Below are positions 27-17,682 of a DNA stretch of 64,000 nucleotides, piece after piece. A program made the translations under genes and the position numbers. Within the stretch, counting starts at the first letter, position 1. Each line of letters begins with the position of its first letter. The DNA lies in IMG/VR virus record IMGVR_UViG_3300035695_000002, positions 1 to 64,000 of that record; one strand, 5' to 3'. The notes beneath the pieces were generated by a model. The model saw nothing but the letters and a program-made list of their open reading frames with translations. It made no database searches and was not told the origin of the DNA. The stretch is from a virus.

Positions 27-72
27 CCCCTCACCTCCTAGATAACTAGGGAGCGAATGCTGTTGTGAAGGG
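27..72 (+). ncRNA. Structured intergenic element 1
   Basis: No ORF covers this stretch. A 5-bp hairpin CCTAG (37-41) / CTAGG (46-50) with an ATAA loop sits inside a longer helix. In that helix 27-29 and 31-34 pair with 70-72 and 65-68, with one C-A mismatch. This is the weakest of five similar intergenic structures on this strand and lies at the window edge, so its left limit is unknown. It could be a small RNA, a leader or merely a fold in non-coding DNA; the strand is inferred from neighbouring genes. Confidence 0.35.
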
Positions 73-336
73 CGTAAGTATTGTTTCATAAAGGCAAATA
101 TATGTAAAAGGATTGACATTTCCAAATATGAATATGTAAAAGGTGGGATTTAGAATAGAGGTTTATTACAGAGGGGTTTTTAGGGGAATTAGGAAATAAA
201 AAATTTTCCAAATTTTGGGGATTTTTTATGTTAAAGAGGGAATGGTGTACCTCCAACTTCCCACCCCTCCTAAGTTTGGGGAGTTGACATCACCCCCGTA
301 GGTCGAAATTAACATAAAACAAAAATTAAAAACAAA
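73..336. other. Non-coding stretch before first gene
   Basis: No convincing ORF. It holds one A/T hairpin (GGAAA 192-196 with TTTCC 205-209), a G-rich run around 160-190 and a pyrimidine-rich then G-rich block at about 250-300. TAAGTTTG at 271-278 matches the Bacteroidota -7 box, but no -33 TTTG sits 19-20 bases upstream, so I do not call it a promoter. Confidence 0.5.
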
Positions 337-732
337 ATGGTAGAATTTAAGAAGTATGAGGCCAGTACAGCAGAGCTTACTGACCTTGGCACAGTTAAAG
401 CCTTAGCTGGAAAAGGTGGAAAAATAGGGCTAATTCGCAAGAATTACAAAGACCTTACAAAGAGAGTGGTAGTTGTTGTTACCAAGAAAGATGGTACTTC
501 TGCTACTGTTCCATGTAGCAAGCAGGTGAGTGATGCTTTCAGGGCAAAACAACTCTCTGTTGCACAACTTGTAGGGTTGAACATCATTGAAACAGAGGCT
601 GAAGATGGTAGCTTGCGTCAATTTATTGCAATGCCAACAACTGGTGGATTGCATGAGATTGCTGTTGATAAGGTGAATGTTGAGGCCATTGAGGCTGAAG
701 CTGTCACCAATCCTGAAGAATTGGCTTGGTAA
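337..732 (+). CDS. Hypothetical protein, 131 aa
   Basis: The product begins MVEFKKYEAS and contains a beta-rich stretch (RVVVVVTKKDG) and an acidic C-terminus. I recognise no family. It is the first gene of the window, stands alone between a long non-coding leader and an intrinsic terminator at 748-774, and so probably forms a single-gene transcript. This differs from the overlapping genes that follow. Its somewhat higher GC and regular codon use suggest a well-expressed early or structural-type protein, but that is inference. Confidence 0.8.
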   Translation: MVEFKKYEASTAELTDLGTVKALAGKGGKIGLIRKNYKDLTKRVVVVVTKKDGTSATVPCSKQVSDAFRAKQLSVAQLVGLNIIETEAEDGSLRQFIAMPTTGGLHEIAVDKVNVEAIEAEAVTNPEELAW

Positions 733-747
733 TTGGGGTTTAGGGGA

Positions 748-774
748 AAGAGAGCTGTAATGGCTCTCTTTTTT
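748..774 (+). terminator. Intrinsic terminator
   Basis: AAGAGAGC (748-755) pairs perfectly with GCTCTCTT (763-770) around a 7-base loop, followed by a T-run. It lies just after the stop of the 337-732 gene. Confidence 0.85.
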
Positions 775-1187
775 ATACACCTATATACTAACACCAAATA
801 ATATTTGGACAACATTAACTTTCCCTATATACAGAATTGTACTTTTAGGCAGTTGATACCAAATAATATTCTGTTTGTTCCATTATTAGGGTTATTTCCA
901 TACACCTATATATAAGGAGTAATATACTAAATAGGATAAATCTAGGAGATTGATGAGATATGACCTACAATAGCTCATTAATTACGACTAGCTCTTTAAT
1001 ATACTACTCTATTATATATGTTTCACGTAGAACATTCACTGTAATATACACTGTTTGATGTCAAAATAGTGCGAAATTAAAGAGATTTGTGTGTTTTTAT
1101 GCGATGGTGTACTACCTCACTAATACACTTCTATTCATTATCAACTATCAAAATCATCATTGTTAATCATTATAATAGCATTAATCC
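775..1187. other. Repeat- and hairpin-rich intergenic region
   Basis: About 410 bases without a supported ORF. It contains an operator-like inverted repeat CCAAAT-aat-ATTTGG (794-808). ACCAAATAATATT occurs twice (near 793 and 861), and ATACACCTATATA occurs twice (near 774 and 900). The motif AGCTCnTTAAT is repeated near 973 and 990. A hairpin near 1048-1070 has CACT/AGTG outer and TTTGA/TCAAA inner arms. This looks like a regulatory region or a minor origin rather than lost coding sequence, but its function is not shown. Confidence 0.5.
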
Positions 1188-1385
1188 ATGAAAAAGCCTA
1201 AGAAATTATATCTCTCTAAGACTAAGAAGTTCTTATTATCCCTTCCTAAGAATAGGGTATTTTATACTTCCTTGAGATATAGAGATGACTATTATAGGCG
1301 TGGATTACATGAGCTTAAAGAACATGGTTATTTTGAGCAATTAGGTAGATTTACCTTTAAACGCACAAATAAACAATTGAATTAA
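1188..1385 (+). CDS. Small basic hypothetical protein, 65 aa
   Basis: The N-terminal half is very rich in Lys (MKKPKKLYLSKTKKF), and the rest carries Arg/Tyr clusters (YRDDYYRRG). The charge suggests nucleic-acid binding, but no fold is recognised. First gene after the long non-coding region; the start follows an A/T-rich leader. Confidence 0.7.
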   Translation: MKKPKKLYLSKTKKFLLSLPKNRVFYTSLRYRDDYYRRGLHELKEHGYFEQLGRFTFKRTNKQLN

Positions 1386-1405
1386 ACACACTAAACTCTA
1401 CACTT

Positions 1406-1663
1406 ATGGACTCATACGAATTAAAGAAATTGGAAGATTGTGAGGTGCTATTGGACAGTGTTAATGTTCATGGGAATAAATGTGTTGGTTGTAAAAAGAC
1501 CAATACAAACATTATGCTAGTCCTTAAGCATGAACATCATCCAAATAGGGGAGAATTGGGCTTGGTTGAGGTATTTATGACTAAAGAGCAAGCTTTACAG
1601 ATTATTCACCTTCTCAATGAGCAGCTTATTAAGAATGGGGATATTGCTGTTTCTGTCCTATAA
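1406..1663 (+). CDS. Hypothetical protein with CxxC motif, 85 aa
   Basis: Residues about 27-31 read CVGCKK and are followed by histidines in LKHEHHP, a possible metal-binding knuckle. The C-terminal third is helical and leucine-rich. Spaced 20 bases after the previous stop in the same direction. Function unknown. Confidence 0.75.
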   Translation: MDSYELKKLEDCEVLLDSVNVHGNKCVGCKKTNTNIMLVLKHEHHPNRGELGLVEVFMTKEQALQIIHLLNEQLIKNGDIAVSVL

Positions 1664-1695
1664 TTATTAAACAAACATTCTAAATTCCAACATTT

Positions 1696-1854
1696 ATGAA
1701 AGCACAAGTGAAACAATTAGCAGCCTATTATGGCTGTCAATGTAGTTATTCTGGCAATAAGAGAATAATGTACATACATGGAGATAATAACAAAGAGGCT
1801 ATTGTGGCCATTAAATCACAATTAAAGCCTGAATTTCAATTGATTGAAGATTGA
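1696..1854 (+). CDS. Hypothetical protein, 52 aa
   Basis: ATG at 1696 follows a typical A-rich leader; TGA at 1852. The product begins MKAQVKQLAAYYG and has a CQCSYSGN segment, then an alternating helix/strand pattern. Short, but the start context and even spacing fit its neighbours. An intergenic hairpin follows directly. Confidence 0.6.
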   Translation: MKAQVKQLAAYYGCQCSYSGNKRIMYIHGDNNKEAIVAIKSQLKPEFQLIED

Positions 1855-1861
1855 TATTAGG

Positions 1862-1887
1862 CAATAAGCTATTGGTTTAGCTTATTG
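1862..1887 (+). terminator. Hairpin after 52-aa gene, terminator-like
   Basis: CAATAAGCTA (1862-1871) pairs perfectly with TAGCTTATTG (1878-1887) around a 6-base loop, 7 bases after the stop of the preceding gene. There is no strong T-run behind it, so it may be an RNA processing or 3'-protection structure rather than an efficient terminator. Confidence 0.55.
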
Positions 1888-1898
1888 TCTCTAAATAA

Positions 1899-1989
1899 CT
1901 AGGTGTTCGATGAAGTATTATGGATTCGCATGTGTTGGTGAGGATTACATCCTACTATTACCTTGCGTTGTAATATGGAGAACACCTAG
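1899..1989 (+). ncRNA. Rod-like structured RNA candidate
   Basis: This 91-base element has no ORF. A perfect 10-bp closing helix joins CTAGGTGTTC (1899-1908) and GAACACCTAG (1980-1989). Nested inside are TATTA/TAATA (1916-1920 with 1971-1975), CGCA/TGCG (1927-1930 with 1964-1967), GGT/ACC (1937-1939 with 1960-1962) and AGGAT/ATCCT (1941-1945 with 1949-1953). A T-rich tail follows and the next gene starts 49 bases downstream. It is not a tRNA: no cloverleaf, T-loop or CCA. It could be a phage small RNA or the structured leader of the 2038 gene. Confidence 0.65.
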
Positions 1990-2037
1990 ATTATTGTTTT
2001 TAAACACATTTATACACACATCTTTATAGCATTTAAT

Positions 2038-2265
2038 ATGAAAAACATACATAATCCTAATAATGTGAGAGTGGGAGACACTGTAATATTGGATAAGACA
2101 TTCAATAATATGAGTAAAGTGGTGATATTAGGAATGACTGATAAAGAGGTGTATTCCACTGTATATGATGCTGAAGACCCAGAATTAAGTAAATCTCTTC
2201 CCAATTGGAATAATGTGCTTACATGGGATGTAATGACATACAGACTATCACAAATCAAATCATAA
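2038..2265 (+). CDS. Small beta-rich hypothetical protein, 75 aa
   Basis: The sequence VRVGDTVILDKTFN resembles the first strands of small SH3/KOW-like beta domains, and similar 'VGDxV' starts occur in several proteins here (7968, 30935). Function unknown. It is the first gene after the 1899-1989 structured element, which may lie in its leader. Confidence 0.7.
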   Translation: MKNIHNPNNVRVGDTVILDKTFNNMSKVVILGMTDKEVYSTVYDAEDPELSKSLPNWNNVLTWDVMTYRLSQIKS

Positions 2266-2289
2266 TCACATTTTAAACCTCTAAATACA

Positions 2290-2490
2290 ATGAAAATATA
2301 TACAATGCCTGTAATATGCTCCATTTGTGGAGGAGAAGGTGCCGCAACTCCTAGAGATGCTGCTAGTGAATGGTTGGGAGTTGAATTAGTACATTCAGAT
2401 CCAAGAGTTTGTAGAGATAATCTAAAAGCTCAAATAGAGAAAGAAAAAAGAGAAGAGTTAAATAAGGGTAAATTTAAGCTTTCTATATGA
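2290..2490 (+). CDS. Small zinc-ribbon-like protein, 66 aa
   Basis: CSICGG near residue 11 gives one CxxC, and another cysteine sits in DPRVCRDNLK. The C-terminal third is a charged helix (AQIEKEKREELNK). This suggests a small zinc-binding or rubredoxin-like knuckle. The stop overlaps the start of the next gene (ATGA). Confidence 0.7.
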   Translation: MKIYTMPVICSICGGEGAATPRDAASEWLGVELVHSDPRVCRDNLKAQIEKEKREELNKGKFKLSI

Positions 2491-2630
2491 AACCAGAAGC
2501 TATTATTCGTATATATTGGCATAAATGTGACTATAATGTTACATGTGTCCAATTGAAGCCTATGAACATGCAGGCTTATTATCTCCTATTAAGGCATAGA
2601 GCTGATAGACTTATTCATCAACCTGTTTAA
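2487..2630 (+). CDS. Hypothetical protein, 47 aa
   Basis: ATG at 2487 overlaps the TGA of the previous gene, implying translational coupling. The product begins MKPEAIIRIYWHKC and is rich in aromatic residues and Arg. No family recognised. Confidence 0.6.
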   Translation: MKPEAIIRIYWHKCDYNVTCVQLKPMNMQAYYLLLRHRADRLIHQPV

Positions 2631-2641
2631 ACACCAATAAC

Positions 2642-2884
2642 ATGAAAATTTTAACAATAGCTAGAATTGTGGTTGTTTGCTTGTTGCTATTCTGCATAGG
2701 AATGGCAATATATGCTTTTAATGTTCCTGTAGAGCAAGATTGGAGGATTGTTCCTGCTTTGATTGGAACAGTTATCATACTTATCATACCGTTAGGAGCA
2801 TGTGTATACTTGTTCTTTATAATATGTGGAGCAATCGTGTGGTTTATAGAATGGTTGATAACAGGAAAATCTGAAATATTCTAA
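2642..2884 (+). CDS. Two-helix membrane protein, 80 aa
   Basis: Two long hydrophobic segments are visible: residues about 4-27 and about 37-68, the second possibly two short helices. Polar loop EQDWR lies between. A small inner-membrane protein in an early operon; role unknown. The neighbouring lipoprotein gene starts 1 base after the stop. Confidence 0.75.
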   Translation: MKILTIARIVVVCLLLFCIGMAIYAFNVPVEQDWRIVPALIGTVIILIIPLGACVYLFFIICGAIVWFIEWLITGKSEIF

Positions 2885-2885
2885 T

Positions 2886-3038
2886 ATGAGAAAATTAGCA
2901 TTTATTATTGTAATAATGCTCCTAATGATGTCATGTGGAGCTATTAAGAATATGCCTCAAAGGGATAAAAATGCCTATAAAATATCATTTGTTGTAGGTT
3001 TTGGGCTAGAAAGAGAATATCACTTCATTAAACACTAA
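2886..3038 (+). CDS. Small predicted lipoprotein, 50 aa
   Basis: A short positive N-terminus (MRKLAF), a hydrophobic core and a lipobox LMMSC around Cys17 predict signal peptidase II processing to a mature peptide of about 34 residues. Downstream of a membrane-protein gene. One of at least three early lipoproteins in this window; phage lipoproteins sometimes block superinfection, which is only a possibility here. Confidence 0.65.
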   Translation: MRKLAFIIVIMLLMMSCGAIKNMPQRDKNAYKISFVVGFGLEREYHFIKH

Positions 3039-3042
3039 TACT

Positions 3043-3156
3043 ATGAAAAAGCATAAATTAGCTATTCTAAAGGAAATATACAAAGAAGTGGTGAAGCATG
3101 GAGATGTTTCCAAGGCTTTTACATTAAGGCAACAGTTAGTAGAACAGTTAAAATAA
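3043..3156 (+). CDS. Hypothetical peptide, 37 aa
   Basis: ATG at 3043 lies 4 bases after the previous stop. The product (MKKHKLAILKEIYKE...) is a Lys-rich amphipathic helix. Very short, so coding status is moderate. Confidence 0.5.
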   Translation: MKKHKLAILKEIYKEVVKHGDVSKAFTLRQQLVEQLK

Positions 3157-3261
3157 ACATGGAATAGGGTTTTATTATCATCACTAAGACTATTCAATTA
3201 GACACTCCTGATGGTATTTATAAAGCTCTATTCCTATTCAAATCTTAAAAGTAAACATTTT

Positions 3262-3819
3262 ATGACACTTAAAAGAATAACAGTAGTTATGCTTCCTACT
3301 AATGAAAAAACAAATTTGTTCATAGATAAAGGACAATTATTATATTTCCCAGATCATAAAAGAAGTTATGTTGAATGGAAAGATGTTCAATATCAACATC
3401 TTTATTTCCTTTCAGATGAAGAAATAAAAGAAGGAGATTGGTATATCTGGTGGACTATAGGTACTTCTGTTCAGTTTGGAACTGTAATACAAGCAAAAAA
3501 CGGAATGTTAGCTAAAGCAGCTAGAGCTAAAATCATAGCTACAACAGATAGTTCATTACAAGACTTTAATTTTGATCCAGAAAAGAAATTGGGTAATTAT
3601 TTACCTCAACCTTCTCAATCATTTCTTGAAGTATTTGTAAAAGAATACAATAAAGGAAATGTGATTAAAGAAGTGATGGTAGAGTATGAGGAAGTAAGAG
3701 AAATTAGAATTACAAACGACCATGATGGACAATATGATAATGATTGCTTAGTAGGATATTCCCCCAAAATCAATCTCAAAGACAATGCTATTACAATAAA
3801 GAGAGTAAAGGATAGTTAG
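3262..3819 (+). CDS. Hypothetical protein cut by amber codon, 185 aa
   Basis: I choose ATG 3262 (MTLKRITVVMLP) because it follows a normal A-rich leader; the upstream in-frame ATG at 3211 would add 17 atypical residues. The protein has a DEEIKEGDWYIWW segment and a C-terminal beta region. TAG at 3817-3819 stops it, but the same frame then runs on for 36 coding-like codons. I therefore suspect a nonsense mutation or readthrough (see the separate entry). The family with 'DEEIKEGDWY' is recurrent in Bacteroidota phages and has no known function that I can name. Confidence 0.7.
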   Translation: MTLKRITVVMLPTNEKTNLFIDKGQLLYFPDHKRSYVEWKDVQYQHLYFLSDEEIKEGDWYIWWTIGTSVQFGTVIQAKNGMLAKAARAKIIATTDSSLQDFNFDPEKKLGNYLPQPSQSFLEVFVKEYNKGNVIKEVMVEYEEVREIRITNDHDGQYDNDCLVGYSPKINLKDNAITIKRVKDS

Positions 3820-3930
3820 ACACGAGAGAAAGTGATTGAATTAATAAAGAGATGGAGTGAAGAGTCTAAAACTCCTTATTCTTTTGCCGATGTACACGGA
3901 ATTGATGAATGGATTGAACAAAATCTTTAA
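3820..3930 (+). pseudogene. In-frame C-terminal tail after amber codon
   Basis: Directly after TAG 3817-3819, the frame of the upstream gene stays open for 36 codons to TAA 3928-3930. It begins TREKVIELIKRW and ends DEWIEQNL. This helix plus W-I-E-x-N-L ending is the kind of tail that closes many small Bacteroidota phage proteins. TAG is one base from TAT/TAC, and Ser-Tyr-Thr-Arg-Glu would read naturally. Either a recent nonsense mutation detached the tail or the amber codon is read through. Confidence 0.6.
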
Positions 3931-3955
3931 AACAACAACAAAAACCAATAAAACA

Positions 3956-4084
3956 ATGAAAACAACAAGAATAGTATTATTATTCCTTGTATTAGGACTA
4001 ATAGCATTGCTTTCTTCATGTAGCGAACATACATGTCCTACATATTCAGGAAGCACTCCTCATCATAACAATGTGTGGAGATAG
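3956..4084 (+). CDS. Small predicted lipoprotein, 42 aa
   Basis: MKTTRIVLLF begins a signal peptide of about 21 residues ending LLSSC, a clear lipobox. The mature part of about 21 residues is polar with His and Asn. ATG 3956 is preferred over the upstream in-frame ATG at 3857, because the latter places a charged 33-residue stretch before the signal. Followed by structured intergenic element 4097-4178. Confidence 0.7.
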   Translation: MKTTRIVLLFLVLGLIALLSSCSEHTCPTYSGSTPHHNNVWR

Positions 4085-4096
4085 TTAATAAATAGA

Positions 4097-4178
4097 GAAA
4101 ATAGATAGTGAGCGAAAACACTTGAGGTTGAGTAATATGAGGTAATACTTATACAACTAGTCGAGGAGACCTATTTTC
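4097..4178 (+). ncRNA. Three-way-junction RNA candidate
   Basis: Closing helix GAAAATAG (4097-4104) / CTATTTTC (4171-4178) is perfect over 8 bp. It encloses hairpin AGTG/CACT (4107-4110 with 4119-4122, loop AGCGAAAA). A second arm has GTTG/CAAC (4127-4130 with 4154-4157) stacked on AGTA/TACT (4131-4134 with 4146-4149). A T-rich tail follows and the next gene starts 32 bases on. No ORF. Possibly a small RNA or leader of the 4210 gene. Confidence 0.5.
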
Positions 4179-4209
4179 CCTGTTTTACACATTTAAATCC
4201 TTAAATAAT

Positions 4210-4389
4210 ATGAAGACATATCCTCTAACAGAACTAATTAAATTCAGACCCAATCAGAAATTCCTCTATAATGAGAAAATATACACTATTTACACTCATG
4301 AAGGGAATATGGTGGAGGTATTTGATGGTGGTAAGTTCTGGGCTTGGCCTAATTGGGCTAAAGTGATTCCTGTAACATTTGATAACTAA
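4210..4389 (+). CDS. Hypothetical protein, 59 aa
   Basis: ATG 4210 follows AAATAAT. The product (MKTYPLTELIKFRPNQKFLY...) ends in a Trp-rich beta segment (GGKFWAWPNWAKVIP). It looks like a small beta-barrel. First gene after structured element 4097-4178. Confidence 0.65.
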   Translation: MKTYPLTELIKFRPNQKFLYNEKIYTIYTHEGNMVEVFDGGKFWAWPNWAKVIPVTFDN

Positions 4390-4400
4390 ACATTAAAATT

Positions 4401-4625
4401 ATGTTTAAAATAGGAGAAAAAATAATTGCTTTAATATCTCAAACAGACGAAGAGCAGCAAATATTTGAATGTTATTGTGGACAAGAGCACCCTCATAGAG
4501 GAAAATGGTGGAGTCACAGTAAGAAATTTGCTAAAATAGACGAATCCTCACTAGAAGAAGCTATAGAACAAGAAAATTATGAATTAGCATCAATTTTAAG
4601 AGACAATTTAAAACAATTAAAATAA
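4401..4625 (+). CDS. Small protein with UVR-like helix pair, 74 aa
   Basis: The N-terminal half has CYCGQEHPHRG, a possible metal site. The C-terminal half, SLEEAIEQENYELASILRDN, matches the spacing of the UVR motif of UvrB/UvrC and ClpC-type proteins (helix, N-Y/F-E-x-A, R-D). That motif mediates protein contacts in those families; its role here is unknown. Overlaps the next start by one base. Confidence 0.7.
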   Translation: MFKIGEKIIALISQTDEEQQIFECYCGQEHPHRGKWWSHSKKFAKIDESSLEEAIEQENYELASILRDNLKQLK

Positions 4626-4822
4626 TGGAAACTCATCCTTTTTACAAATACCGGAGAGAAGACTGCTCTGAAGCATATAGCTACAATCAGCTAATGGAAA
4701 TGGTGACAAAAATTGATTTTGGCTCTATGAGGAGAAAAACTCCTCAAGAAAAGCTAGAATTGAAGAATAGGATGGTAAACTATCCTAATAAGAGACATTG
4801 TCCTGTTCCTCCTAACAACTAA
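4625..4822 (+). CDS. Hypothetical protein, 65 aa
   Basis: Polar protein beginning METHPFYKYRRED, ending in a proline-rich tail (HCPVPPNN). TAATG overlap with the upstream gene indicates coupling. A strong terminator follows at 4839-4866, so it closes an operon. No family recognised. Confidence 0.65.
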   Translation: METHPFYKYRREDCSEAYSYNQLMEMVTKIDFGSMRRKTPQEKLELKNRMVNYPNKRHCPVPPNN

Positions 4823-4838
4823 TCATTAAAATCATTAG

Positions 4839-4866
4839 AAAATGGGTATTAACACTACCCATTTTT
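4839..4866 (+). terminator. Intrinsic terminator
   Basis: AAAATGGGTA (4839-4848) pairs perfectly with TACCCATTTT (4856-4865) around a 7-base loop and runs into T residues. Located 17 bases after the stop at 4822. Confidence 0.85.
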
Positions 4867-4897
4867 CATTAAATTTAAAGAATAAACCCACCAAATT

Positions 4898-5362
4898 ATG
4901 GATATTCGTGTAAAATGCGATAGACCTGGCTATCCTTTAGGAAGGAATATGAAGGGTGCTATGAAGACAATAGATGCTTATATAGCAGCTTTCAGTAAAT
5001 TGGGGTATGACACACATAAAGGAATTAACTTATGGTGTAGAGGCTCTAGTGGGGCTATATTGGCTGGTATGTTTGCTGTTAAATGTCAATATGAATGTAA
5101 AATATGTCATATTAAGAAAGATAATGAAAGTTCTCATAGTGGTAATTGGCAATCTTATGATGATAGGAATATTAATGTTATAATAGATGATTTTGTATCA
5201 TTCGGGCATACATTAATGGCTATTGTTGCTCATATTGAGAATATTAACAGGGAACATGCAGAACAACTTACATTTGATGTCTTAATGATATTAGATTGGG
5301 AAAATGCTCCTGAGACTACAGTAGACCAATTTACACACAGAATAGGAACTAGAATACATTAA
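4898..5362 (+). CDS. Phosphoribosyltransferase-like protein A, 154 aa
   Basis: Two landmarks of type I phosphoribosyltransferases are present. LWCRGSSGAI at about residues 46-55 is in the position of the diphosphate loop, and VIIDDFVSFGHTL at about 90-102 fits the PRPP-binding signature (hydrophobic strand, two acidic residues, T/S-x-G-x-T). In the family these enzymes join a base or other nucleophile to PRPP; the substrate is not deducible. It is a paralogue of the 6132 gene. The hood region is short, so specificity may be unusual. Confidence 0.7.
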   Translation: MDIRVKCDRPGYPLGRNMKGAMKTIDAYIAAFSKLGYDTHKGINLWCRGSSGAILAGMFAVKCQYECKICHIKKDNESSHSGNWQSYDDRNINVIIDDFVSFGHTLMAIVAHIENINREHAEQLTFDVLMILDWENAPETTVDQFTHRIGTRIH

Positions 5363-5373
5363 ACATTACAATT

Positions 5374-5643
5374 ATGCAACAAGTATTATGTATAGAAACT
5401 GGCAGAGGACCAGCAAGAAAAAAGCCAATTAAAGGGAATATTTATAATTCTAAAGGGATATTCCAACAAAAAATATTCTACAAAGGAGTGGATGCATGGC
5501 ACTCCTTAGAAGAAATGATTCCTGGAGATATGGCTCATGTGTGTTTATTTATTGATCTCCCTTCTCAGGAAGGACAATCATTCAAAAAAGAAGAAACTGT
5601 GGAAATACCACAAGAATTAAAACCATTTTACTCACAAAGATGA
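5374..5643 (+). CDS. Hypothetical protein, 89 aa
   Basis: Begins MQQVLCIETGRGPARKKPIKGN, then a compact beta pattern. The 'valuable leader, then GxxY' start resembles small SH3-like phage proteins, but I cannot assign a family. Lies between two phosphoribosyltransferase-like genes; its stop overlaps the next start. Confidence 0.7.
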   Translation: MQQVLCIETGRGPARKKPIKGNIYNSKGIFQQKIFYKGVDAWHSLEEMIPGDMAHVCLFIDLPSQEGQSFKKEETVEIPQELKPFYSQR

Positions 5644-5762
5644 AAAGATATACTGTACAGCAAATAAGGAAATACATAGAATCATGTGATTCTTTAGGAG
5701 ATGTTCTTTATCTTTGTGCCTTCAGAGCACATAAGATTTCTATTATTTACATTGTAAATTAA
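5640..5762 (+). CDS. Hypothetical peptide, 40 aa
   Basis: ATGA overlap with the upstream gene. MKRYTVQQIRKYIESC starts a helix; the C-terminus is hydrophobic. No homology recognised. Confidence 0.55.
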   Translation: MKRYTVQQIRKYIESCDSLGDVLYLCAFRAHKISIIYIVN

Positions 5763-5772
5763 CTTAAAATAT

Positions 5773-5922
5773 ATGAAAACATTCATTAAATGTGCTTCTG
5801 TATTAAGAATAGCTCTTACACGCTCCTCAAGAAAGGAGAGAAGGAGAAAAGTGTGCGAAACCTTGGAGGAATATGTTAGAATACATGAACCTTATGGTAA
5901 TTTAGAATATTGTTTCGTTTAA
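5773..5922 (+). CDS. Basic hypothetical peptide, 49 aa
   Basis: ATG 5773, 10 bases after the previous stop. Contains an Arg/Lys-rich segment (RSSRKERRRKVCE), suggesting nucleic-acid contact. It is followed at once by the structured element at 5926-6107. Confidence 0.55.
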   Translation: MKTFIKCASVLRIALTRSSRKERRRKVCETLEEYVRIHEPYGNLEYCFV

Positions 5923-5925
5923 AAC

Positions 5926-6107
5926 ATTCATGCTTAACGTGAATATCTGTGGAATTCAGAGCCTATATTTGAGTGAGGAACAAGATAGACCTAATATAGC
6001 AGACTAGGAGACCCTCCAGGCTATAATGGGTAGAAGTTCGACAGAGATGTCGATAGAATTAACTCTTAAGTCCTAATTGTGTATATAGTGAGTGAAAGTC
6101 TCTTTTT
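5926..6107 (+). ncRNA. Large multibranched RNA candidate
   Basis: About 180 bases without an ORF carry several stable helices. These are ATTCA/TGAAT (5926-5930 with 5940-5944); a closing CTATAT/ATATAG (5963-5968 with 6083-6088); AGGA/TCCT (5976-5979 with 6071-6074); and TATAGC/GCTATA (5995-6000 with 6020-6025) stacked on GGAG/CTCC (6007-6010 with 6014-6017). A perfect TCGACA/TGTCGA hairpin (6038-6043 with 6048-6053) is capped by a GAGA tetraloop. A T-rich tail follows and the next gene starts at 6132. It lies between the two phosphoribosyltransferase-like cistrons. Confidence 0.6.
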
Positions 6108-6131
6108 ATTTAATTTTAACCCTCTAAATTA

Positions 6132-6653
6132 ATGAAAATTCATACATTTGAAGAAATAAGTAGTTCCATATATCCTGTAGGGGAGAATATGGACATTGCT
6201 AAAGAATTTATAAGGAAAGCTATTCCTGTTTTAAAACCTCTCATTAAGAACAAATTAGTGAATATTTGGGTGAGAGGTAGTTCTGGAGCTATATTGGGAG
6301 GACTGTTAGTAGGAAAACTTACCAATGACTGTATTATATTCCATGTAAAGAAAGAGGGAGAAGATAGTCATCATGGTAATGATTTCTCTAATTGGTATAG
6401 TAGAAAACAAGGAATTAACATTATTTTAGATGATTTCATTCAAACAGGAAAGACAGTAAATGCTATTTGGGAAGAAATGAAAGCAAGAAAAGCTAAAGTA
6501 CATATACTCTTAGTTGTAAACAATAAAAGAGATATATGGTTTGCTGATTTTGTGCCCACACATTTAATCTCTGAAAAAGGAGATGCTCAACCAGGATGGA
6601 ATAAATTGGGTGTAAAGAAGAAAGAAACAATACAGGTAGATATAGACTTTTAA
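6132..6653 (+). CDS. Phosphoribosyltransferase-like protein B, 173 aa
   Basis: WVRGSSGAILGG near residues 46-57 (diphosphate-loop position) and IILDDFIQTGKTV near 98-110 (PRPP signature with paired acidic residues and TGKT) mark a type I phosphoribosyltransferase fold. It shares the RGSSGAI core and layout with the 4898 protein, so the two are paralogues, but about 20 residues of C-terminal sequence differ. The TGKT version looks more canonical. It may be a salvage enzyme or may modify a base; the acceptor is unknown. Confidence 0.75.
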   Translation: MKIHTFEEISSSIYPVGENMDIAKEFIRKAIPVLKPLIKNKLVNIWVRGSSGAILGGLLVGKLTNDCIIFHVKKEGEDSHHGNDFSNWYSRKQGINIILDDFIQTGKTVNAIWEEMKARKAKVHILLVVNNKRDIWFADFVPTHLISEKGDAQPGWNKLGVKKKETIQVDIDF

Positions 6654-6679
6654 AACAATTGAATAAAACAATAAAAATT

Positions 6680-6754
6680 ATGAAAACACAAACACATATA
6701 CTATGTGGAATAATGTTCCTCATAGACCTTTTAATAATTGTAATTGGTAATTGA
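6680..6754 (+). CDS. Hydrophobic microprotein, 24 aa
   Basis: ATG 6680 follows AAAATT, the usual start context here. After MKTQTHILCG a run of 14 hydrophobic residues predicts one membrane helix. Very short, so uncertain, but it starts a run of membrane-associated genes. Confidence 0.45.
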   Translation: MKTQTHILCGIMFLIDLLIIVIGN

Positions 6755-6774
6755 TTAAAAAACATGGACATATT

Positions 6775-7778: not shown

Positions 7779-7779
7779 A

Positions 7780-7962: not shown

Positions 7963-7967
7963 AAATT

Positions 7968-10054: not shown

Positions 10055-10062
10055 TTTATTAT

Positions 10063-10088
10063 AAAAGGGAGAGAAATCTCCCTTTTTT
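10063..10088 (+). terminator. Intrinsic terminator
   Basis: AAAAGGGAGA (10063-10072) pairs perfectly with TCTCCCTTTT (10077-10086) around a GAAA tetraloop, continuing into a T-run. It closes the 9695 cistron, 9 bases after its stop. Confidence 0.9.
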
Positions 10089-10106
10089 CACTAAAATTTA
10101 AACAAA

Positions 10107-10760: not shown

Positions 10761-10777
10761 GATAATGAGATTGTTAC

Positions 10778-10873
10778 TTCTCTCAAAGCTGAAGTAAATG
10801 GGCTAAATTAGCCTAAATTAAGAGAAAAAGGTCAAATATTCTGTAATTGTAACGGGAATTCTTAGTACAATTA
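10778..10873. other. Hairpins in intergenic gap
   Basis: The gap 10761-10938 has no ORF. TTCTCT/AGAGAA (10778-10783 with 10821-10826) encloses the hairpin GGCTA-aat-TAGCC (10801-10813). A separate perfect 8-bp hairpin TAATTGTA/TACAATTA spans 10844-10873. They precede the promoter at 10880-10911 and may be the 3' end of the upstream transcript or a regulatory site. Confidence 0.5.
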
Positions 10874-10879
10874 GGTAAA

Positions 10880-10911
10880 TTTGTATATTTCATATAAATT
10901 ACCTACCTTTG
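10880..10911 (+). promoter_or_regulatory. Bacteroidota-type promoter
   Basis: TTTG (10880-10883), 20-base spacer, TACCTTTG (10904-10911). This is an exact match to the Bacteroidota housekeeping sigma consensus TTTG / TAnnTTTG. It sits 27 bases before the ATG of the secreted lysozyme-like gene. Confidence 0.8.
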
Positions 10912-10938
10912 TCTCTTTCTTATTAAATTGAAAAAACT

Positions 10939-12149: not shown

Positions 12150-12196
12150 AAGCAGAATTTAACTCCCTCATGGTATAAATAAAACCAACAAAGAAG

Positions 12197-12430
12197 ATGA
12201 ATAATTTAGAAAAGAAGATTTTTGAGATTTTAACAGATGGTTTTGATTATAATTCTATACATCCAGATCATCTCAACGGATGGAGCGAAGATATTAACCT
12301 TTCTAAAGCCGTCTCTCAGTTCTTACTTGAGAAAATAAAAGAGGCTATGGTATATGCAAGATTGAAAGATTCAAAAAGTCTTGATGAGACTATTGATGAT
12401 TACCTAAAATCAAAATATAACATCCAATGA
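12197..12430 (+). CDS. Hypothetical protein, 77 aa
   Basis: Helical, acidic (MNNLEKKIFEILTDGFDYNSIHPDHL...). Begins a group of genes from 12197 to 14018 with slightly less AT-rich codons. The stop overlaps the next start (ATGA). Confidence 0.65.
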   Translation: MNNLEKKIFEILTDGFDYNSIHPDHLNGWSEDINLSKAVSQFLLEKIKEAMVYARLKDSKSLDETIDDYLKSKYNIQ

Positions 12431-12636
12431 GCAAACACGTTCAGTTCACCGAGATTAAAGAAAACCAAGAAATTTATTGGAGATGGAGAAAAGACTCCGG
12501 TAAGTCAATTAACAAATCAACAGTTCAATCAAAAATTATTACAGAACAAGGGCAAGAAATTTTAGAACTAAGTGATGGAAGTTTTTGGACAAACTATCCC
12601 AATAGAATCTTGTTTAAAGATATTGAAATTTTATAA
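12427..12636 (+). CDS. Hypothetical protein, 69 aa
   Basis: Small beta-rich protein (TEIKENQEIYWRWRKDSGKS... ELSDGSFWTNYPNR), similar in style to the SH3-like modules elsewhere. Coupled to the upstream gene by ATGA. Function unknown. Confidence 0.65.
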   Translation: MSKHVQFTEIKENQEIYWRWRKDSGKSINKSTVQSKIITEQGQEILELSDGSFWTNYPNRILFKDIEIL

Positions 12637-12652
12637 CCCTCACCTCCTAAAA

Positions 12653-12928
12653 ATGGCAACTATGAAAACAGAATGGATAAGCGTTAAAGACAAACTACCA
12701 AGACAGGGTAAAGAAGTTTTGGTTCGTTGGAAAGAATATAAAGGTAATTATCGAACGGTAATCGGTAAGAAATGGAATGAGCCTCAGTATCCTGAAACTC
12801 CTTGGCATTTTAGTTATTATGACTGCGACGGCAATAACATGCTCGATCATTCACAAGTCACTCACTGGATGCCATTACCCGAACCACCAAAACAACGAAC
12901 CTTAAACTCACAGACTCTAAATGGTTAG
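12653..12928 (+). CDS. DUF551-like protein, 91 aa
   Basis: The pattern WISVKDKLPRQGKEVLVRW at the start and VTHWMPLPEPP near the end is diagnostic of the DUF551 family, common in phages and without known function. ATG 12653 follows the upstream stop by 17 bases; ATG 12662 is an alternative. An upstream in-frame ATG at 12572 lies within the previous gene and is less likely. Confidence 0.85.
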   Translation: MATMKTEWISVKDKLPRQGKEVLVRWKEYKGNYRTVIGKKWNEPQYPETPWHFSYYDCDGNNMLDHSQVTHWMPLPEPPKQRTLNSQTLNG

Positions 12929-12932
12929 TAAT

Positions 12933-13136
12933 ATGAAAACAAAACTTACGGACGTTGGATTTAAGCGAGTTATCAATAAGAAAAATCCTCTATCTAAAGG
13001 ACGTGAAAGAGCCTTTGTAAAATGTAGAAAATGCAAAACACAATCTTATTATGATTTCGTGCCATATTCTCTCAGTAATCCAATTATGACAACTCCCTGT
13101 GGTCACAGTTATTATCAATACTATAAATCATTTTAG
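12933..13136 (+). CDS. Zinc-binding-like hypothetical protein, 67 aa
   Basis: CRKCKTQ (CxxC) and TPCGHSYY give four potential metal ligands, so probably a small zinc finger. ATG 12933 follows the upstream TAG by 4 bases (ATG 12921 is also in frame). The gene ends in TAG one codon before the next ATG. Confidence 0.65.
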   Translation: MKTKLTDVGFKRVINKKNPLSKGRERAFVKCRKCKTQSYYDFVPYSLSNPIMTTPCGHSYYQYYKSF

Positions 13137-13139
13137 ACT

Positions 13140-13430
13140 ATGAAAGTAAAATACACCTCTTCCAAATGGTTCTTAGAGAACAATGGAGAGTGGATTGAGA
13201 TTGCAGAAGAAGATAAGGGGAGAGTTAATCAACTAGTCTGCTATACTCTTTTCAATGGCAATAGTCCAACTCCCGACACCGAGTATCAGTTACCGGACGA
13301 TGTTGGGTTTGAGATTGAAACTACATGTATTAACAAAGGAGAAAGATTAAATTGTGCTAACGAAACTTGTTGGGATTTAAACGAGTGTCAGAGAAATCCC
13401 GAATTAAAAATTGCTCACTTAAAACTATAG
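13140..13430 (+). CDS. Hypothetical protein, 96 aa
   Basis: Beta-rich start (MKVKYTSSKWFLENNGEWIEI) and a C-terminal cysteine cluster (CINKGERLNCANETCWDLNEC) that could bind metal or form disulphides. Ends in TAG, and the following gene begins in the same frame one codon later. Function unknown. Confidence 0.7.
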   Translation: MKVKYTSSKWFLENNGEWIEIAEEDKGRVNQLVCYTLFNGNSPTPDTEYQLPDDVGFEIETTCINKGERLNCANETCWDLNECQRNPELKIAHLKL

Positions 13431-13433
13431 TTT

Positions 13434-14018
13434 ATGGAACCACATACTGAAGAATGGATTATGAAAATAAGTAGAGAAGCCGAAGATTATTTTTGGTTAC
13501 AAACTGGATATAGAGATTTACCACGTTTTCACTATAAAGAAAATATTTGGTTCGTAGTGCATGATGATAAATCTGTAACCGTGATTCAAGTACATCAATC
13601 TCATAGTTATGCTAATGGAGAAAGAAGAGGAGTAATGGATGAATGGGAAATATTATGGAAAACTACTATTGATATTAATTCTTGGGAATCTATAATGAAA
13701 TTTACAACTGAAAAGAAAGTTGCTCATTTGGAAGTAGAGCAAAAGCAAGAAGGTGTTAGTGCTTCTTATGATAAAATTCTACAACAGCAGGATTTGAAAA
13801 TAGAGAAGAAAGAAGGACAATATTTCAATTCAAATTTCAAGAAACAGGAACAAAGCGAAGTTGAAAGACTGAGAGAGGAGAACGAGGAACTCAAAAAATG
13901 GAAAGAAGATGCTTTAAAGTTATGGCAAAATTGGTTTGTTGGAAAGGATGTTGACCCTATTAAAAAAATCCGCGAACTCGAAAGCAAATTAAGCCAGTTG
14001 GAGGGAAAGAAATCATGA
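13434..14018 (+). CDS. Hypothetical coiled-coil protein, 194 aa
   Basis: The N-terminal 95 residues look globular (EDYFWLQTGYRDLPRFHY, VTVIQVHQSHSY). From about 110 the sequence is Gln/Glu/Lys-rich, and residues about 140-190 form a coiled coil (EVERLREENEELKKWKED). The pattern fits a small structural or scaffold-like protein, but no family is recognised. Its TGA overlaps the start of a 39-aa membrane ORF. Confidence 0.75.
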   Translation: MEPHTEEWIMKISREAEDYFWLQTGYRDLPRFHYKENIWFVVHDDKSVTVIQVHQSHSYANGERRGVMDEWEILWKTTIDINSWESIMKFTTEKKVAHLEVEQKQEGVSASYDKILQQQDLKIEKKEGQYFNSNFKKQEQSEVERLREENEELKKWKEDALKLWQNWFVGKDVDPIKKIRELESKLSQLEGKKS

Positions 14019-14134
14019 AAATCACTAAGAAATGGGCAAAAAGGGCTATTTATACAGGAATAGCCTTTTTTATTGTCTATATGACTGTATATTTTTATTT
14101 CCTATATAGGATATTATCACCTTTTATACATTAA
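14015..14134 (+). CDS. Single-pass membrane microprotein, 39 aa
   Basis: ATG 14015 overlaps the previous TGA. MKITKKWAKR is basic, followed by a long hydrophobic/aromatic helix (about 12-32). The topology is clear, but a terminator-like hairpin lies within the ORF, so either the gene is real and read through or it is fortuitous. Confidence 0.5.
   Translation: MKITKKWAKRAIYTGIAFFIVYMTVYFYFLYRILSPFIH
14038..14071 (+). terminator. Terminator-like hairpin inside small ORF
   Basis: GGCTATT (14044-14050) pairs with AATAGCC (14059-14065), flanked by A-run and T6. It is a textbook intrinsic terminator for the 13434 gene but lies within the 39-aa membrane ORF. Confidence 0.65.
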
Positions 14135-14138
14135 AATA

Positions 14139-14567
14139 ATGGAAACTCCAGAGAAGAAGAATTGTATTTTTGCTTATTATAAGAATAATGAGTTTATGGG
14201 GATGAGGTGCGACTCTTTTGGCACTCTTAGAAAGGATTTTGCTAAGGTGTACACTTATTCTCCTGAACAAGTGGAAGTTATAAAAGATAACACAAAGCAT
14301 GAATTAGGGATGTCAGGAACAGCTTTTATGAAACTTATTCTCTCAGATGAACCTGAAATTGTAGAAAAAGTGAATAAAGGAGAATTAGAGAAGAGAGAAT
14401 GGGGTGAATTTGAACTCAGGGTATATAATTGGATGAATAGAGATGAATTCTATGAAATGTGTACACCTGGAGAAGAATGGAAAAGAAATAAGATTATAGA
14501 AGATTTCCTCAAAGAAACTCCTTTGGAAGTGCATAAATTTAAGACAGTATTAGGACAGGAAAATTAA
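14139..14567 (+). CDS. Hypothetical protein, 142 aa
   Basis: Begins METPEKKNCIFAYYKNNEF, with alternating charged helices and a C-terminal EMCTPGEEWKRN segment. The N-terminal strand pattern is like other small phage accessory proteins. No catalytic motif is visible. Spaced 11 bases from the next gene. Confidence 0.7.
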   Translation: METPEKKNCIFAYYKNNEFMGMRCDSFGTLRKDFAKVYTYSPEQVEVIKDNTKHELGMSGTAFMKLILSDEPEIVEKVNKGELEKREWGEFELRVYNWMNRDEFYEMCTPGEEWKRNKIIEDFLKETPLEVHKFKTVLGQEN

Positions 14568-14578
14568 CCAATAGAATT

Positions 14579-15400
14579 ATGTTTAAGAATATGATGAAAC
14601 AAGCAGAAAAAGCAATTACTTCTGCTAGCAAACCTACAATAGCTGTAGTATCACAAAAAAAGGTGATAGAAGAGATTCATGAAACTTTCTTTACAGAAGT
14701 AGATAGACTGTTAGCAGAGGCTAAAATAAGCAAATCTACAGAAACTCAATATGAGGATTTGTTGAAAAAACAAGAAAGATTGAAGAATTTAGGCTTTTCT
14801 CAAACAAAAGAGATGATAGCCGCTCAAGCTGAAATAGCCAGATTAGAAGCTATTAATAAGGAAAATGCTAATAAAGAGACTTTAATTAAGGCTATTGAGT
14901 ATTTCTCAATGAAATACCCTACATATAAGTTCATTACAGAGCAATCAGTAAAGAAAATATGTCAAAAATATGGCCTTATATATGGAGGAATTGATAAATA
15001 CAAAGGTACAGTTCCTGATAGGGCTATTGAGGATATGGAGAGGTTTAAAATTGAAGAAGTTGACGAAGCTTGGATAAAATCTAGTGATTTTGTTGGATTT
15101 CGAGGAATAAGTAACGAGAGAACTTTTGTTTCTCATTACATAGGAACTAAGTCAACTTCAACAAGCGGTCATTATTATCATGAAATATTTTATAAAGCTT
15201 CTTTAGAAATAGCTGCTCCTTTAAGTGATTTTGATACAAGAGGAATGGAGACAAAAGACTTCCAATTATGTAGAATAGAAGTACCAGATCCTATTGTACT
15301 ACAGCCTGTAATGTTCAATAATAACAAATATTATTTAATCGTTACAGCTTGGGGATTGGAAGCTAAAGATGAGCTTGTATTTAATCCTAAAATGAACTAA
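14579..15400 (+). CDS. Hypothetical protein with coiled coil, 273 aa
   Basis: Residues about 30-105 form a long helical/coiled-coil region; the second half is globular (CQKYGLIYGGIDKYKGTVP; DTRGMETKDFQL; EVPDPIVLQPVMF). Homologues of this architecture with the 'YGGxxxYxGxVP' and 'DPIVLQPV' signatures recur in large Bacteroidota phages, with no known function. No signal peptide. Possibly a structural or host-takeover protein. Confidence 0.75.
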   Translation: MFKNMMKQAEKAITSASKPTIAVVSQKKVIEEIHETFFTEVDRLLAEAKISKSTETQYEDLLKKQERLKNLGFSQTKEMIAAQAEIARLEAINKENANKETLIKAIEYFSMKYPTYKFITEQSVKKICQKYGLIYGGIDKYKGTVPDRAIEDMERFKIEEVDEAWIKSSDFVGFRGISNERTFVSHYIGTKSTSTSGHYYHEIFYKASLEIAAPLSDFDTRGMETKDFQLCRIEVPDPIVLQPVMFNNNKYYLIVTAWGLEAKDELVFNPKMN

Positions 15401-15428
15401 TTTATGGAAATCAAAGAATTTTACACTT

Positions 15429-15902
15429 ATGGCAACATTAATTATTACATCAGGACTACCTTTTTCCAAAAGGGACTCTTATGTCAGAAACTTAGACAAA
15501 TCATACACCATTATATCCAGAGAAGTAAGTAGAGGGCACTTATTTGGGTATGATAGAGAAACCTCTACAGCTAGAGAGGTGGAAATCACCAGAGACATGA
15601 AATTTAGGCTAGGGAAAGCTTATTTAAGTGGTTTGGACATATGTTATAATTCAACTAATTGTATGGGATGCTTTATTGATAAACTTATAGCTGAATGTCC
15701 TGCCGAATATGAAATAAGGGTGAAATTCTTTGATTGTTCCATATATAGAGCTATAATAGGTAATATTCTCCAATGGCTTAAGAACAGTAAATGGATACCC
15801 ATAGATGTCCTCTTAGCCTTAAAAGGAGGATATGACACTATCGATAAGGATAAATATAGGGTATTTAACAACGAACTTTCTATAGTTCAAAAACATTGGT
15901 GA
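15429..15902 (+). CDS. Degenerate polynucleotide-kinase-like protein, 157 aa
   Basis: The layout follows phage polynucleotide-kinase/AAA_33 domains: an N-terminal strand and P-loop position (TLIITSGLPFSKRDS), a middle GLDICYNSTNC in place of G-x-x-V-I-x-D-x-T-N, then IRVKFFDCSIYRAI and a PIDVLLALKGGYD tail. The P-loop reads GLPFSKRD where active kinases have GLPGSGKS/T, so nucleotide binding is probably lost or altered. It may be a pseudo-kinase with a binding role. Confidence 0.6.
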   Translation: MATLIITSGLPFSKRDSYVRNLDKSYTIISREVSRGHLFGYDRETSTAREVEITRDMKFRLGKAYLSGLDICYNSTNCMGCFIDKLIAECPAEYEIRVKFFDCSIYRAIIGNILQWLKNSKWIPIDVLLALKGGYDTIDKDKYRVFNNELSIVQKHW

Positions 15903-15903
15903 T

Positions 15904-16140
15904 ATGGAAGAATTAGGAATCATTAAAGGAATTAATGTAGGCATGAGGGATGCTTATAGTCCTATCTGTTGGTTTTCTGTAGATACGCTATCTGGAGGGA
16001 GCTTACAAGTACTTTCTATTGAAGAAATGGCTAAATTAATAGAAAAACACAATATCTACAAACTCTCTGATTTGAATGATAAACCTTGTATAATGAAAAG
16101 AGAAGGTTCGATAATGACATTTATAGGTTTAAAAGTATAA
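15904..16140 (+). CDS. Hypothetical protein, 78 aa
   Basis: Compact alpha/beta protein (MEELGIIKGINVGMRDAYSP...). Begins one base after the kinase-like gene stop, so likely co-translated. No family recognised. Confidence 0.7.
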   Translation: MEELGIIKGINVGMRDAYSPICWFSVDTLSGGSLQVLSIEEMAKLIEKHNIYKLSDLNDKPCIMKREGSIMTFIGLKV

Positions 16141-16142
16141 AT

Positions 16143-16334
16143 ATGGACGAAATATATGAATTTATGGAAGATTGGGACCACCCTAATCTACATGGAGAAT
16201 CTTGGGAATATCATATACTAGAAGCAGCTCATATTTACTATGAGAACCATCCTGAAAGGCGTGTAATGAAGGATAAGAACATTATTTCCAATTATAAGTC
16301 TTGGAAAAGAGAGAAATATGCACCAGAAATGTGA
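16143..16334 (+). CDS. Hypothetical protein, 63 aa
   Basis: ATG 16143 (MDEIYEFMEDWDHPNLHGES) begins just after the previous stop; the upstream in-frame ATG at 16086 would overlap it. Acidic N-terminus, basic C-terminus, with His-Glu-rich HGESWEYHILEAAH. Function unknown. Confidence 0.65.
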   Translation: MDEIYEFMEDWDHPNLHGESWEYHILEAAHIYYENHPERRVMKDKNIISNYKSWKREKYAPEM

Positions 16335-16340
16335 AATATT

Positions 16341-16484
16341 ATGAAACCTTATGGAAGTTTAGCCAATAAAGCAAAACAATGGTATTATTGGGGAGACAAG
16401 ATACCTAAGAAATTTAGAAGGTATTTCAATAAAGCTGCTCGTAAACTATTTAAGTTCAAAATATATAAAGAATCATCTATATGA
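16341..16484 (+). CDS. Basic hypothetical peptide, 47 aa
   Basis: ATG 16341, ending TGA over the next ATG. Very basic with aromatic residues (WYYWGDKIPKKFRRYF). Likely nucleic-acid or membrane-surface binding, by composition only. Confidence 0.55.
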   Translation: MKPYGSLANKAKQWYYWGDKIPKKFRRYFNKAARKLFKFKIYKESSI

Positions 16485-17041
16485 ATACATATTTGAATAA
16501 AATCAAGAAAACTCCTTCCATAGAACAGAAAACGTTTGTTAGAGACTATTTGGCTACATTTTTTAGTGGTTATAATGTTCTACATGGATTAGCAGGTCCT
16601 AACATAAATAGTTATATTAAATGGGCTATAGCACATAAATTTAAGGAAATTAACATTTATGAGAAGGATAGGAATATAATGATAAAACAATTAGGGGAAA
16701 TTAGAGGGAAAGTTCCTATTTCCCTTAAATTGGGGGATATTAACAATGTAACGCCTGAAGAAGGCGTTTTTTATGACCTAGACTATTGTTGCACTGTAAA
16801 TGCTGTAGAGGAGGCTGTTAGAAAGTTTGATAAAAACAACTTTATAATGACCTTCTCTAGGAGACTTGTAGGGAATAAGACAATAGACAGGTTTTTTGAA
16901 ATAAGAAATGAAATAGTGAAGGTTAAAAAGGAATTATTATTCCCCATAGAGCATACAAGATATGCTACAAATAGAGGGGGATATATTTATGCTCCTTATT
17001 TCGATACTTCTGCAATGTGTTGTATAGCTAAAATAAACTAA
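16481..17041 (+). CDS. Rossmann/methyltransferase-like hypothetical protein, 186 aa
   Basis: HGLAGPNINSYIKWA followed by INIYEKDRNIMIKQL (about residues 50-75) has the order of a SAM-binding loop and the acidic end of strand 2. GVFYDLDYC at about 95 would be strand 4. The glycine-rich loop is weak (GLAGP), so a divergent or inactive methyltransferase fold is only suggested. A conserved C-terminal GGYIYAPYFD segment follows. No target domain. Confidence 0.55.
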   Translation: MNTYLNKIKKTPSIEQKTFVRDYLATFFSGYNVLHGLAGPNINSYIKWAIAHKFKEINIYEKDRNIMIKQLGEIRGKVPISLKLGDINNVTPEEGVFYDLDYCCTVNAVEEAVRKFDKNNFIMTFSRRLVGNKTIDRFFEIRNEIVKVKKELLFPIEHTRYATNRGGYIYAPYFDTSAMCCIAKIN

Positions 17042-17043
17042 TT

Positions 17044-17283
17044 ATGAATATATTTAAAAAGATAAATATTCCCACAGGAGACACTAAAGAGTTAGTTGCT
17101 TTAGAGAATTGGACAGTAAAATGGAGGTCTAGATATGGTGATTTCAGCCATGAGACTACTGAAGAATGTGAAGTATTTACATCAAGAGAAGATGCTAATC
17201 AATTTGCTGAAGCCTTAAGAGATGCATTTAAATTACTCAAATATTCTAATGGAACTGAAGTAAATGTTAAAAGAACGAAATAA
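17044..17283 (+). CDS. Hypothetical protein, 79 aa
   Basis: Small alpha/beta protein: VKWRSRYGDFSHETTEECEVF followed by a helix (REDANQFAEALRDAFKLLKY). The strand-strand-helix order resembles small phage DNA-mimic or single-fold accessory proteins, but nothing specific is shared. Confidence 0.7.
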   Translation: MNIFKKINIPTGDTKELVALENWTVKWRSRYGDFSHETTEECEVFTSREDANQFAEALRDAFKLLKYSNGTEVNVKRTK

Positions 17284-17284
17284 T

Positions 17285-17551
17285 ATGAAACTAAAATTTT
17301 GGACACCTGAAGAAACTAACAGGCTTACAGAGCTTGTAAGAACATGTAAAACTAAACAAGAAGCTTTTAGAACTCTGTCTAAGGAGACAAAAAGGAGTAC
17401 TGGATGTATTCTACAAAAATACTACTCTATATCTGGAGAAGGAAAAAGAAAACCAGCAAAGCAATCTATACAGCTTCCAGAGGGATTTGAATTTAATTTT
17501 GTCCCTAAGAGAGCAACAATGCAGAAAAATAGTGTAACTTTGTATTTTTAA
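17285..17551 (+). CDS. Myb/SANT-like DNA-binding protein, 88 aa
   Basis: FWTPEETNRLTELVRT, then TKQEAFRTLSKETKRS and TGCILQKYY, give three helices with the aromatic spacing of a Myb/SANT domain (first Trp at about residue 5). The tail is basic. ATG 17285 is chosen over upstream ATG 17264, which overlaps the previous gene. Its 3' end contains the -7-like TAACTTTG at 17535, so it may lie next to a regulated promoter of the replication operon. Confidence 0.7.
   Translation: MKLKFWTPEETNRLTELVRTCKTKQEAFRTLSKETKRSTGCILQKYYSISGEGKRKPAKQSIQLPEGFEFNFVPKRATMQKNSVTLYF
17535..17542 (+). promoter_or_regulatory. Possible -7 box before structured leader
   Basis: TAACTTTG matches TAnnTTTG exactly, 15 bases before the structured element at 17558. 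No TTTG lies 19-20 bases upstream, so only half of the promoter is visible. Confidence 0.35.
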
Positions 17552-17557
17552 AGAAAT

Positions 17558-17682
17558 AAACTACGGGCGGCTCCCTTCCTCCCAAGAAAGTAGAGAGTAA
17601 ATAGGAAGTAATTTTAAATACAACCTATAGAAGAGTTAAGGCTGACCTTAAAGCATCGTATTACAGGGGGCGAAAGTAGTTT
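17558..17682 (+). ncRNA. Structured leader RNA candidate before polB operon
   Basis: AAACTAC (17558-17564) pairs with GTAGTTT (17676-17682), closing a 125-base fold. Inside are CTTCCT/AGGAAG (17575-17580 with 17603-17608) and TTAAGG/CCTTAA (17636-17641 with 17646-17651, CTGA tetraloop). The closing helix runs into T6, so the whole structure has the outline of a terminator or attenuator. It lies in the 170-base gap before the 17722-polB operon and has no ORF. Confidence 0.55.

Follow-up and report, generated by a model that had tools for sequence, protein, structure and literature searches.

Do the non-coding gaps at the start of a phage genome encode one family of small RNAs, or do they hold elements of different kinds? 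The question is raised by IMG/VR virus record IMGVR_UViG_3300035695_000002 (120,724 bases; genome label G000), which its sequence assigns to the crAss-like phages and whose first 64 kb, the window, we analyzed. An earlier note on this DNA had pointed to five structured gaps on the early arm, where genes run rightward from 337. All five gaps exist and none of them is coding (1-336, 1855-2037, 4085-4209, 5923-6131, and 17552-17721); we call their elements E1 to E5. They very probably do not form one RNA family. At least two of them, together with a hairpin that had been missed (E6), hold real, previously uncatalogued structured RNAs, and we are highly confident that E1, E4, and E6 are real conserved RNAs. 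The best overall explanation, held with modest confidence, is that several unrelated elements lie here: a possible attenuator at E1 and a set of RNA modules along the early arm.

Comparison of the Structured Gaps

If all five gaps carried small phage RNAs that fold alike and belong to a single family, as the earlier note suggested, then some shared feature should connect them. Their placement is similar: E2-E5 each begin soon after a stop codon and stop 24-41 nt short of the next ATG, with T-rich sequence after, as had been described, and ATAGTGAGYGAAA is common to E3 and E4. Against this stand the absence of a common motif or structural model, the differing strands and contexts, and the independent presence or absence of the elements in related phages. 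E1 in particular lies on the opposite strand in a separate transcription unit and does not belong with the others. Covariance models built from E2 (R1) and E3 (R2), each a single-sequence model, matched only their own source when run against 1.26 Mb of DNA from related phages, and no relative of E2 was found; with filters off they gave nothing convincing in the early arm. The E4 model matches E4 and its counterpart in the related phage G030 only. The gaps have no k-mers in common, and among the early gaps of three related phages no shared 7-9 base k-mers were found beyond translation-start leaders and a promoter-like string. A helix test on gap halves gave no excess. The architecture of a closing helix plus U tract, tried as a shared feature, was also rejected, showing no excess over shuffled sequence in G000. 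We therefore regard a single family as very improbable.

The recurring motifs that had been noticed, GAGCGAA, GAGTGAAAG, and GGGCGAAAG, are indeed present in E1, E3, E4, and E5, but the generalized form GRGYGAAW is not enriched (14 found in the window vs 11.5 expected). In the early gaps of relatives it is missing from G002 and near chance in G001, and the pattern is one picked after the fact.

Folding significance was assessed with 300 dinucleotide shuffles per element. Strong helices had been claimed for all five gaps; they hold up for E2, E3, and the core of E4, but not for the whole of E4, for E5, or for the + strand of E1. Nor was the list of structured gaps complete, since a local structure scan added the hairpin at 3161-3235 (E6) and a 42-bp rod at 907-1021. 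The suggestion that the gaps encode regulatory or processed RNAs is only partly supported: it fits E1, E4, and the unlisted E6, where conservation goes together with compensatory changes.

Known families offer no direct match. Across the whole window no Rfam 15 score exceeded the gathering threshold, and in the early arm no more than six weak matches were seen, all below threshold (E 0.069 to 4); none of these was a plausible family, and none lay over E1-E5 as such. A literature search, which covered few subscription papers, found no report of structured RNAs of this crAss-like group.

Conserved RNAs between Early Genes

The comparison with G030 recognizes E4 as a multibranch RNA of ~165 nt (5946..6112, + strand). 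Its helices are P1 (5963-5968/6083-6088), an AGGA/UCCU helix, P2, and P3, joined by the conserved junction strings ACAAGAUAG, UAGAAGUU, and AAGUCCUAAUUGUG; the long junction strings are identical in G030. Over 5737-6102 the two phages align with 73.6% DNA identity. In this alignment 98.1% of cells are paired, with 5 compensated pairs (four in P3, one in P2), whereas sliding the partners by 1-3 columns leaves 27-44% paired and zero compensated pairs. The core at 5988-6055 also folds better than its shuffles (z -4.3, 0/300). A stricter pattern scan found no E4 beyond G030. Most of the matches from loose 14-base scans for E1 and E4 were chance ones, and an early 22-base match to E4 in G002 was set aside as apparently lying within coding sequence.

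E6 is a 26-bp rod hairpin with conserved loops (3161..3235, + strand; z -5.4 against dinucleotide shuffles). The consensus fold with G030 has 25 pairs, of which 3 are compensated, 4 carry one-sided changes, and 0 are broken; identity is higher in the loops (0.89) than in the stems (0.73). A match of the E6 loop in Flavobacterium coding DNA was discarded, such matches being about as numerous as expected by chance. In G030 an extra structured gap, AAGACTATTGA..TCAATAGTCTT with a run of T after it, stands directly before E6 (L301 19485-19600, - strand); it is not in this window.

Do these RNAs act on the gene that follows them? A riboswitch-like cis-regulator would suit elements placed 24-41 nt upstream of start codons, and a phosphoribosyltransferase gene follows E4; a search for relatives of that gene found none. 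However, there is no Rfam riboswitch match, and the gene context has changed: in G030 the gene preceding E4 is kept and the following one is another, while the flanks of E6 differ on both sides. Because the surrounding genes differ in this way, E4 and E6 do not appear to be switches for the following gene and look like independent modules. Cis-regulation of this kind is accordingly quite improbable, and E4 probably gives a free or excised folded RNA.

The Leader of the tRNA Array

Directly left of window base 1, 22 tRNA genes form an array on the minus strand, and E1 is its leader (1..88, - strand, extending beyond window base 1 as far as contig 120544), identified from homologous leaders and its fold. 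It forms a three-way junction of helices P1, P2, and P3, with an intrinsic terminator at the contig 120544 end, before tRNA-Pro. Strand matters here: on the + strand the fold is not significant (49/300 shuffles as good), and on the minus strand E1 plus its terminator is (z -4.3, 1/300). A pattern scan places a Bacteroidota-type promoter, TTTGG..TACATATATTTG, at 95..126 (- strand), leading into E1, and TTTTACATATATTTG is also found upstream of the leader in G030 (L289). The predicted transcript would run through the three-way junction and the intrinsic terminator to tRNA-Pro, tRNA-Gln, and tRNA-His.

The order leader, terminator, tRNAs is kept in four phages (G000, G001, G030, and G002), including G002, where the sequence has diverged and the tRNAs are other ones. 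The G030 leader was recovered by a stricter IMG/VR pattern scan for TTACGCCC..ATTCGCTCC. With helices placed by hand, P1, P2, and P3 consist of standard pairs in all four phages although the pairs differ, as in the P3 variants CCUAG/CUAGG, CCUAA/UUAGG, and CCUAU/AUAGG. The parts of a terminator-attenuated leader (promoter, folded leader, intrinsic terminator, and controlled genes) are complete in G000, G030, and G002; in G001 the leader, terminator, and tRNAs are present, and the promoter-like site lies upstream of a small gene.

This layout is that of an attenuator, and the C-rich terminator arm and the G-rich 3' strand of P1 are complementary to each other. With P1 closed, the downstream intrinsic terminator would form and tRNA transcription would halt; with P1 open, its G-rich 3' strand would pair with the terminator arm and transcription would proceed into the tRNAs. 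The duplex of leader and terminator arm is predicted to be about as strong as the terminator in G000 (-14.4 vs -13.5 kcal/mol) and G030 (-18.0 vs -16.0 kcal/mol). Attenuation of the tRNA array is a serious possibility, though we would put it at less than an even chance. E1 could instead be a free small RNA that ends at a terminator of its own, the array being transcribed independently; the full promoter-RNA-terminator unit in G000 and G030 speaks for this reading, which we also rate below an even chance. Against it, the terminator in G000, G001, and G030 sits immediately ahead of tRNA-Pro, and in G000 the promoter scan detected no host-type promoter in the interval between the two.

Leader attenuators and riboswitch-controlled terminators share with E1 the succession of promoter, folded leader, intrinsic terminator, and controlled genes, and possibly also the alternative pairing of leader and terminator arm. 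E1 differs from them in that it would govern a phage tRNA array, its three-way junction matches no Rfam family, and neither a ligand nor a leader peptide is known for it. GOLLD and ROOL are large structured phage RNAs near tRNA arrays; E1 is likewise non-coding, structured, phage-borne, and near tRNAs, but it is much smaller and without an Rfam match. A conserved, attenuator-like leader before the array suggests one concrete way in which a phage might regulate its supply of tRNAs.

Possible Roles of the Early-Arm Elements

In crAss-like phages an injected virion polymerase is reported to transcribe the early arm and the host enzyme the late arm (PMC8375218; PMC10136315). This division agrees with our promoter scan: host-type promoters abound in the late arm, the first + strand hit being the one at 10880. 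From conservation, pairing, and layout we infer how the early-arm elements may be transcribed and cleaved and what they may do. E2, E4, and E6 would be separate modules between early-arm cistrons, carried in transcripts of the injected giant RNA polymerase. E2 and E6 would most likely serve as processing or stability sites in polycistronic early RNA, through RNase III-type cleavage of long imperfect hairpins, and a free folded RNA would be the probable product of E4. On this analysis a processing role of E2, E4, and E6 is a tentative proposal.

E2 is a 103-nt rod-like hairpin with 40 pairs (1894..1996, + strand; z -5.5, 0/300 shuffles), and a short perfect hairpin stands directly before it (1858..1890, + strand; z -6.5). 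Phage T7 has RNase III processing hairpins between its early genes. Similarly, E2 and E6 (26 pairs) lie between early cistrons as long, imperfect hairpins that span roughly two helical turns and contain internal loops. The phage group and the polymerase are different, however, cleavage of E2 and E6 is a prediction, and E4 is multibranched.

Could the elements be terminators of the early (virion) polymerase? The closing helices of E2, E3, and E5 are followed by U-rich tracts, and E2 lies just before a promoter-like motif at 2025. Nevertheless, a scan for short G+C-rich hairpins with a U tract calls no terminator at E2-E5, the closing helix with U tract is not above shuffles in G000, and no new promoter is recognized for the genes downstream of E3-E5. 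This makes terminators unlikely.

Several points weigh against the combination of an attenuator with early-arm modules that we favor. The comparison of E4 involves two sequences only, with a shuffle control of 17/500, and so does that of E6, with 55/500. The whole of E4 in G000 folds no better than shuffles (85/300), and a long-range closing helix with U tract is, as noted above, no commoner there than in shuffled sequence. In G001 and G002 the duplex of leader and terminator arm is weaker than the terminator. The support throughout comes from sequence and folding. E4 and E6 show that, in addition to small proteins, the arm transcribed by the virion polymerase holds RNA elements.

Lineage-Specific Elements

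The remaining two elements may be of another nature. E3 is a branched fold with an 8-bp closing helix (4089..4183, + strand; z -2.5, 4/300 shuffles), absent in G030, where a gene occupies its place. E5 is AT-rich, with a weak closing helix AAACUAC/GUAGUUU (17555..17688, + strand), and its fold is not significant (z -1.4, 24/300). It was cleanly inserted or deleted, for G030 lacks it and has the flanking genes nearly adjacent. The corresponding site in L049 holds other genes, by eye a phosphoesterase and an HNH-type nuclease. E3 and E5 are lineage-specific and may be functionless.

It is rather probable that E3 and E5 represent, at least in part, chance structure in AT-rich non-coding sequence, as their weak z values and their shared absence from G030 suggest. 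Such an explanation does not cover E1, E4, and E6, whose conserved helices show compensation, and hardly applies to E2 with its z of -5.5.

The phage crAss001 has a TROVE protein (PMC8375218). E2, E3, and E5 share a closing stem and a U-rich 3' end with the bacterial Y RNAs that belong to the Ro60/TROVE system. The idea was dropped, as TROVE (PF05731) was found in 0/28 records (this phage and 27 related ones) while a control genome matched.

We also considered that fast-changing structured RNA genes in the arm read by the injected polymerase (E2, E4, and E6 here, with others in G001, G002, and G030) might be RNA-level counterparts of early host-takeover or counter-defence genes, accompanied by a conditional attenuator of the tRNA array. 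This broader view seems improbable to us.

The 42-bp imperfect rod found by the structure scan (907..1021, + strand; z -4.0) has arms conserved in G030. There they surround a small ORF and here a non-coding loop, so that the rod may be a gene-cassette site.

A Conserved DNA Element before the First Early Gene

The first gap contains a further element, X (225..326, + strand), just upstream of the first early gene. With nhmmer it was detected in the same position in ~27 crAss-like relatives (E 1e-6 to 1e-20). As an RNA it was rejected: no covariation was seen in 27 sequences, and the proposed helices pair no better than shuffled partners. Because the sequence is conserved and the helices are no better than shuffles, X is most likely read as DNA, and we infer that it may act as a promoter or as a control region for the early arm. 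The hairpin promoters of the N4 virion polymerase offer a parallel, since X heads an arm that a virion polymerase reads, and a small hairpin, GGAG-NNTA-CTCC, may form in it. It differs in that its pairing does not exceed that of shuffles, and its promoter role is putative. X thus marks a candidate control site for the virion polymerase.

Genome Organization and Other Observations

The record ends share a 127-base repeat, and the genome (120,597 bp) is for this reason taken as circular. PF25731, the crassvirus muzzle family, is matched by one of the late proteins (E 4e-41). A protein of 4,030 residues contains GSDFDIDK, the DxDxD motif of giant virion RNA polymerases, an identification by motif only. 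Judged by these two proteins, the genome is that of a crAss-like phage. A search of phage records gave no significant DNA match. Gene calls were made with a simple script.

Two phosphoribosyltransferase-like genes lie on the early arm, at 4898-5362 and 6132-6653. A promoter-like string, ATAGCATT(A), occurs twice near the start of this arm (+ strand, at 1175 and 2025, ~0.9 kb apart), and likewise in G001, G002, and G030. The host-type promoter at 10880 is surrounded by an inverted repeat, AAGAGAAAAAGG..CCTTTGTCTCTT (10821-10917), whose arms differ compensatingly in G030.

Relatives share a promoter, TAACTTTGGGG, at the early/late junction, with a G-rich start, GGGTGGAGGGTGGG, after it; in this phage a counterpart is inside the tRNA array (L079 ~15732; contig 118232, - strand). 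Finally, nearly all complete relatives show strong conservation of ATAATATAGCATTA in one gap of the late arm; here the string is located at L079 ~8333 (contig 110833, + strand).

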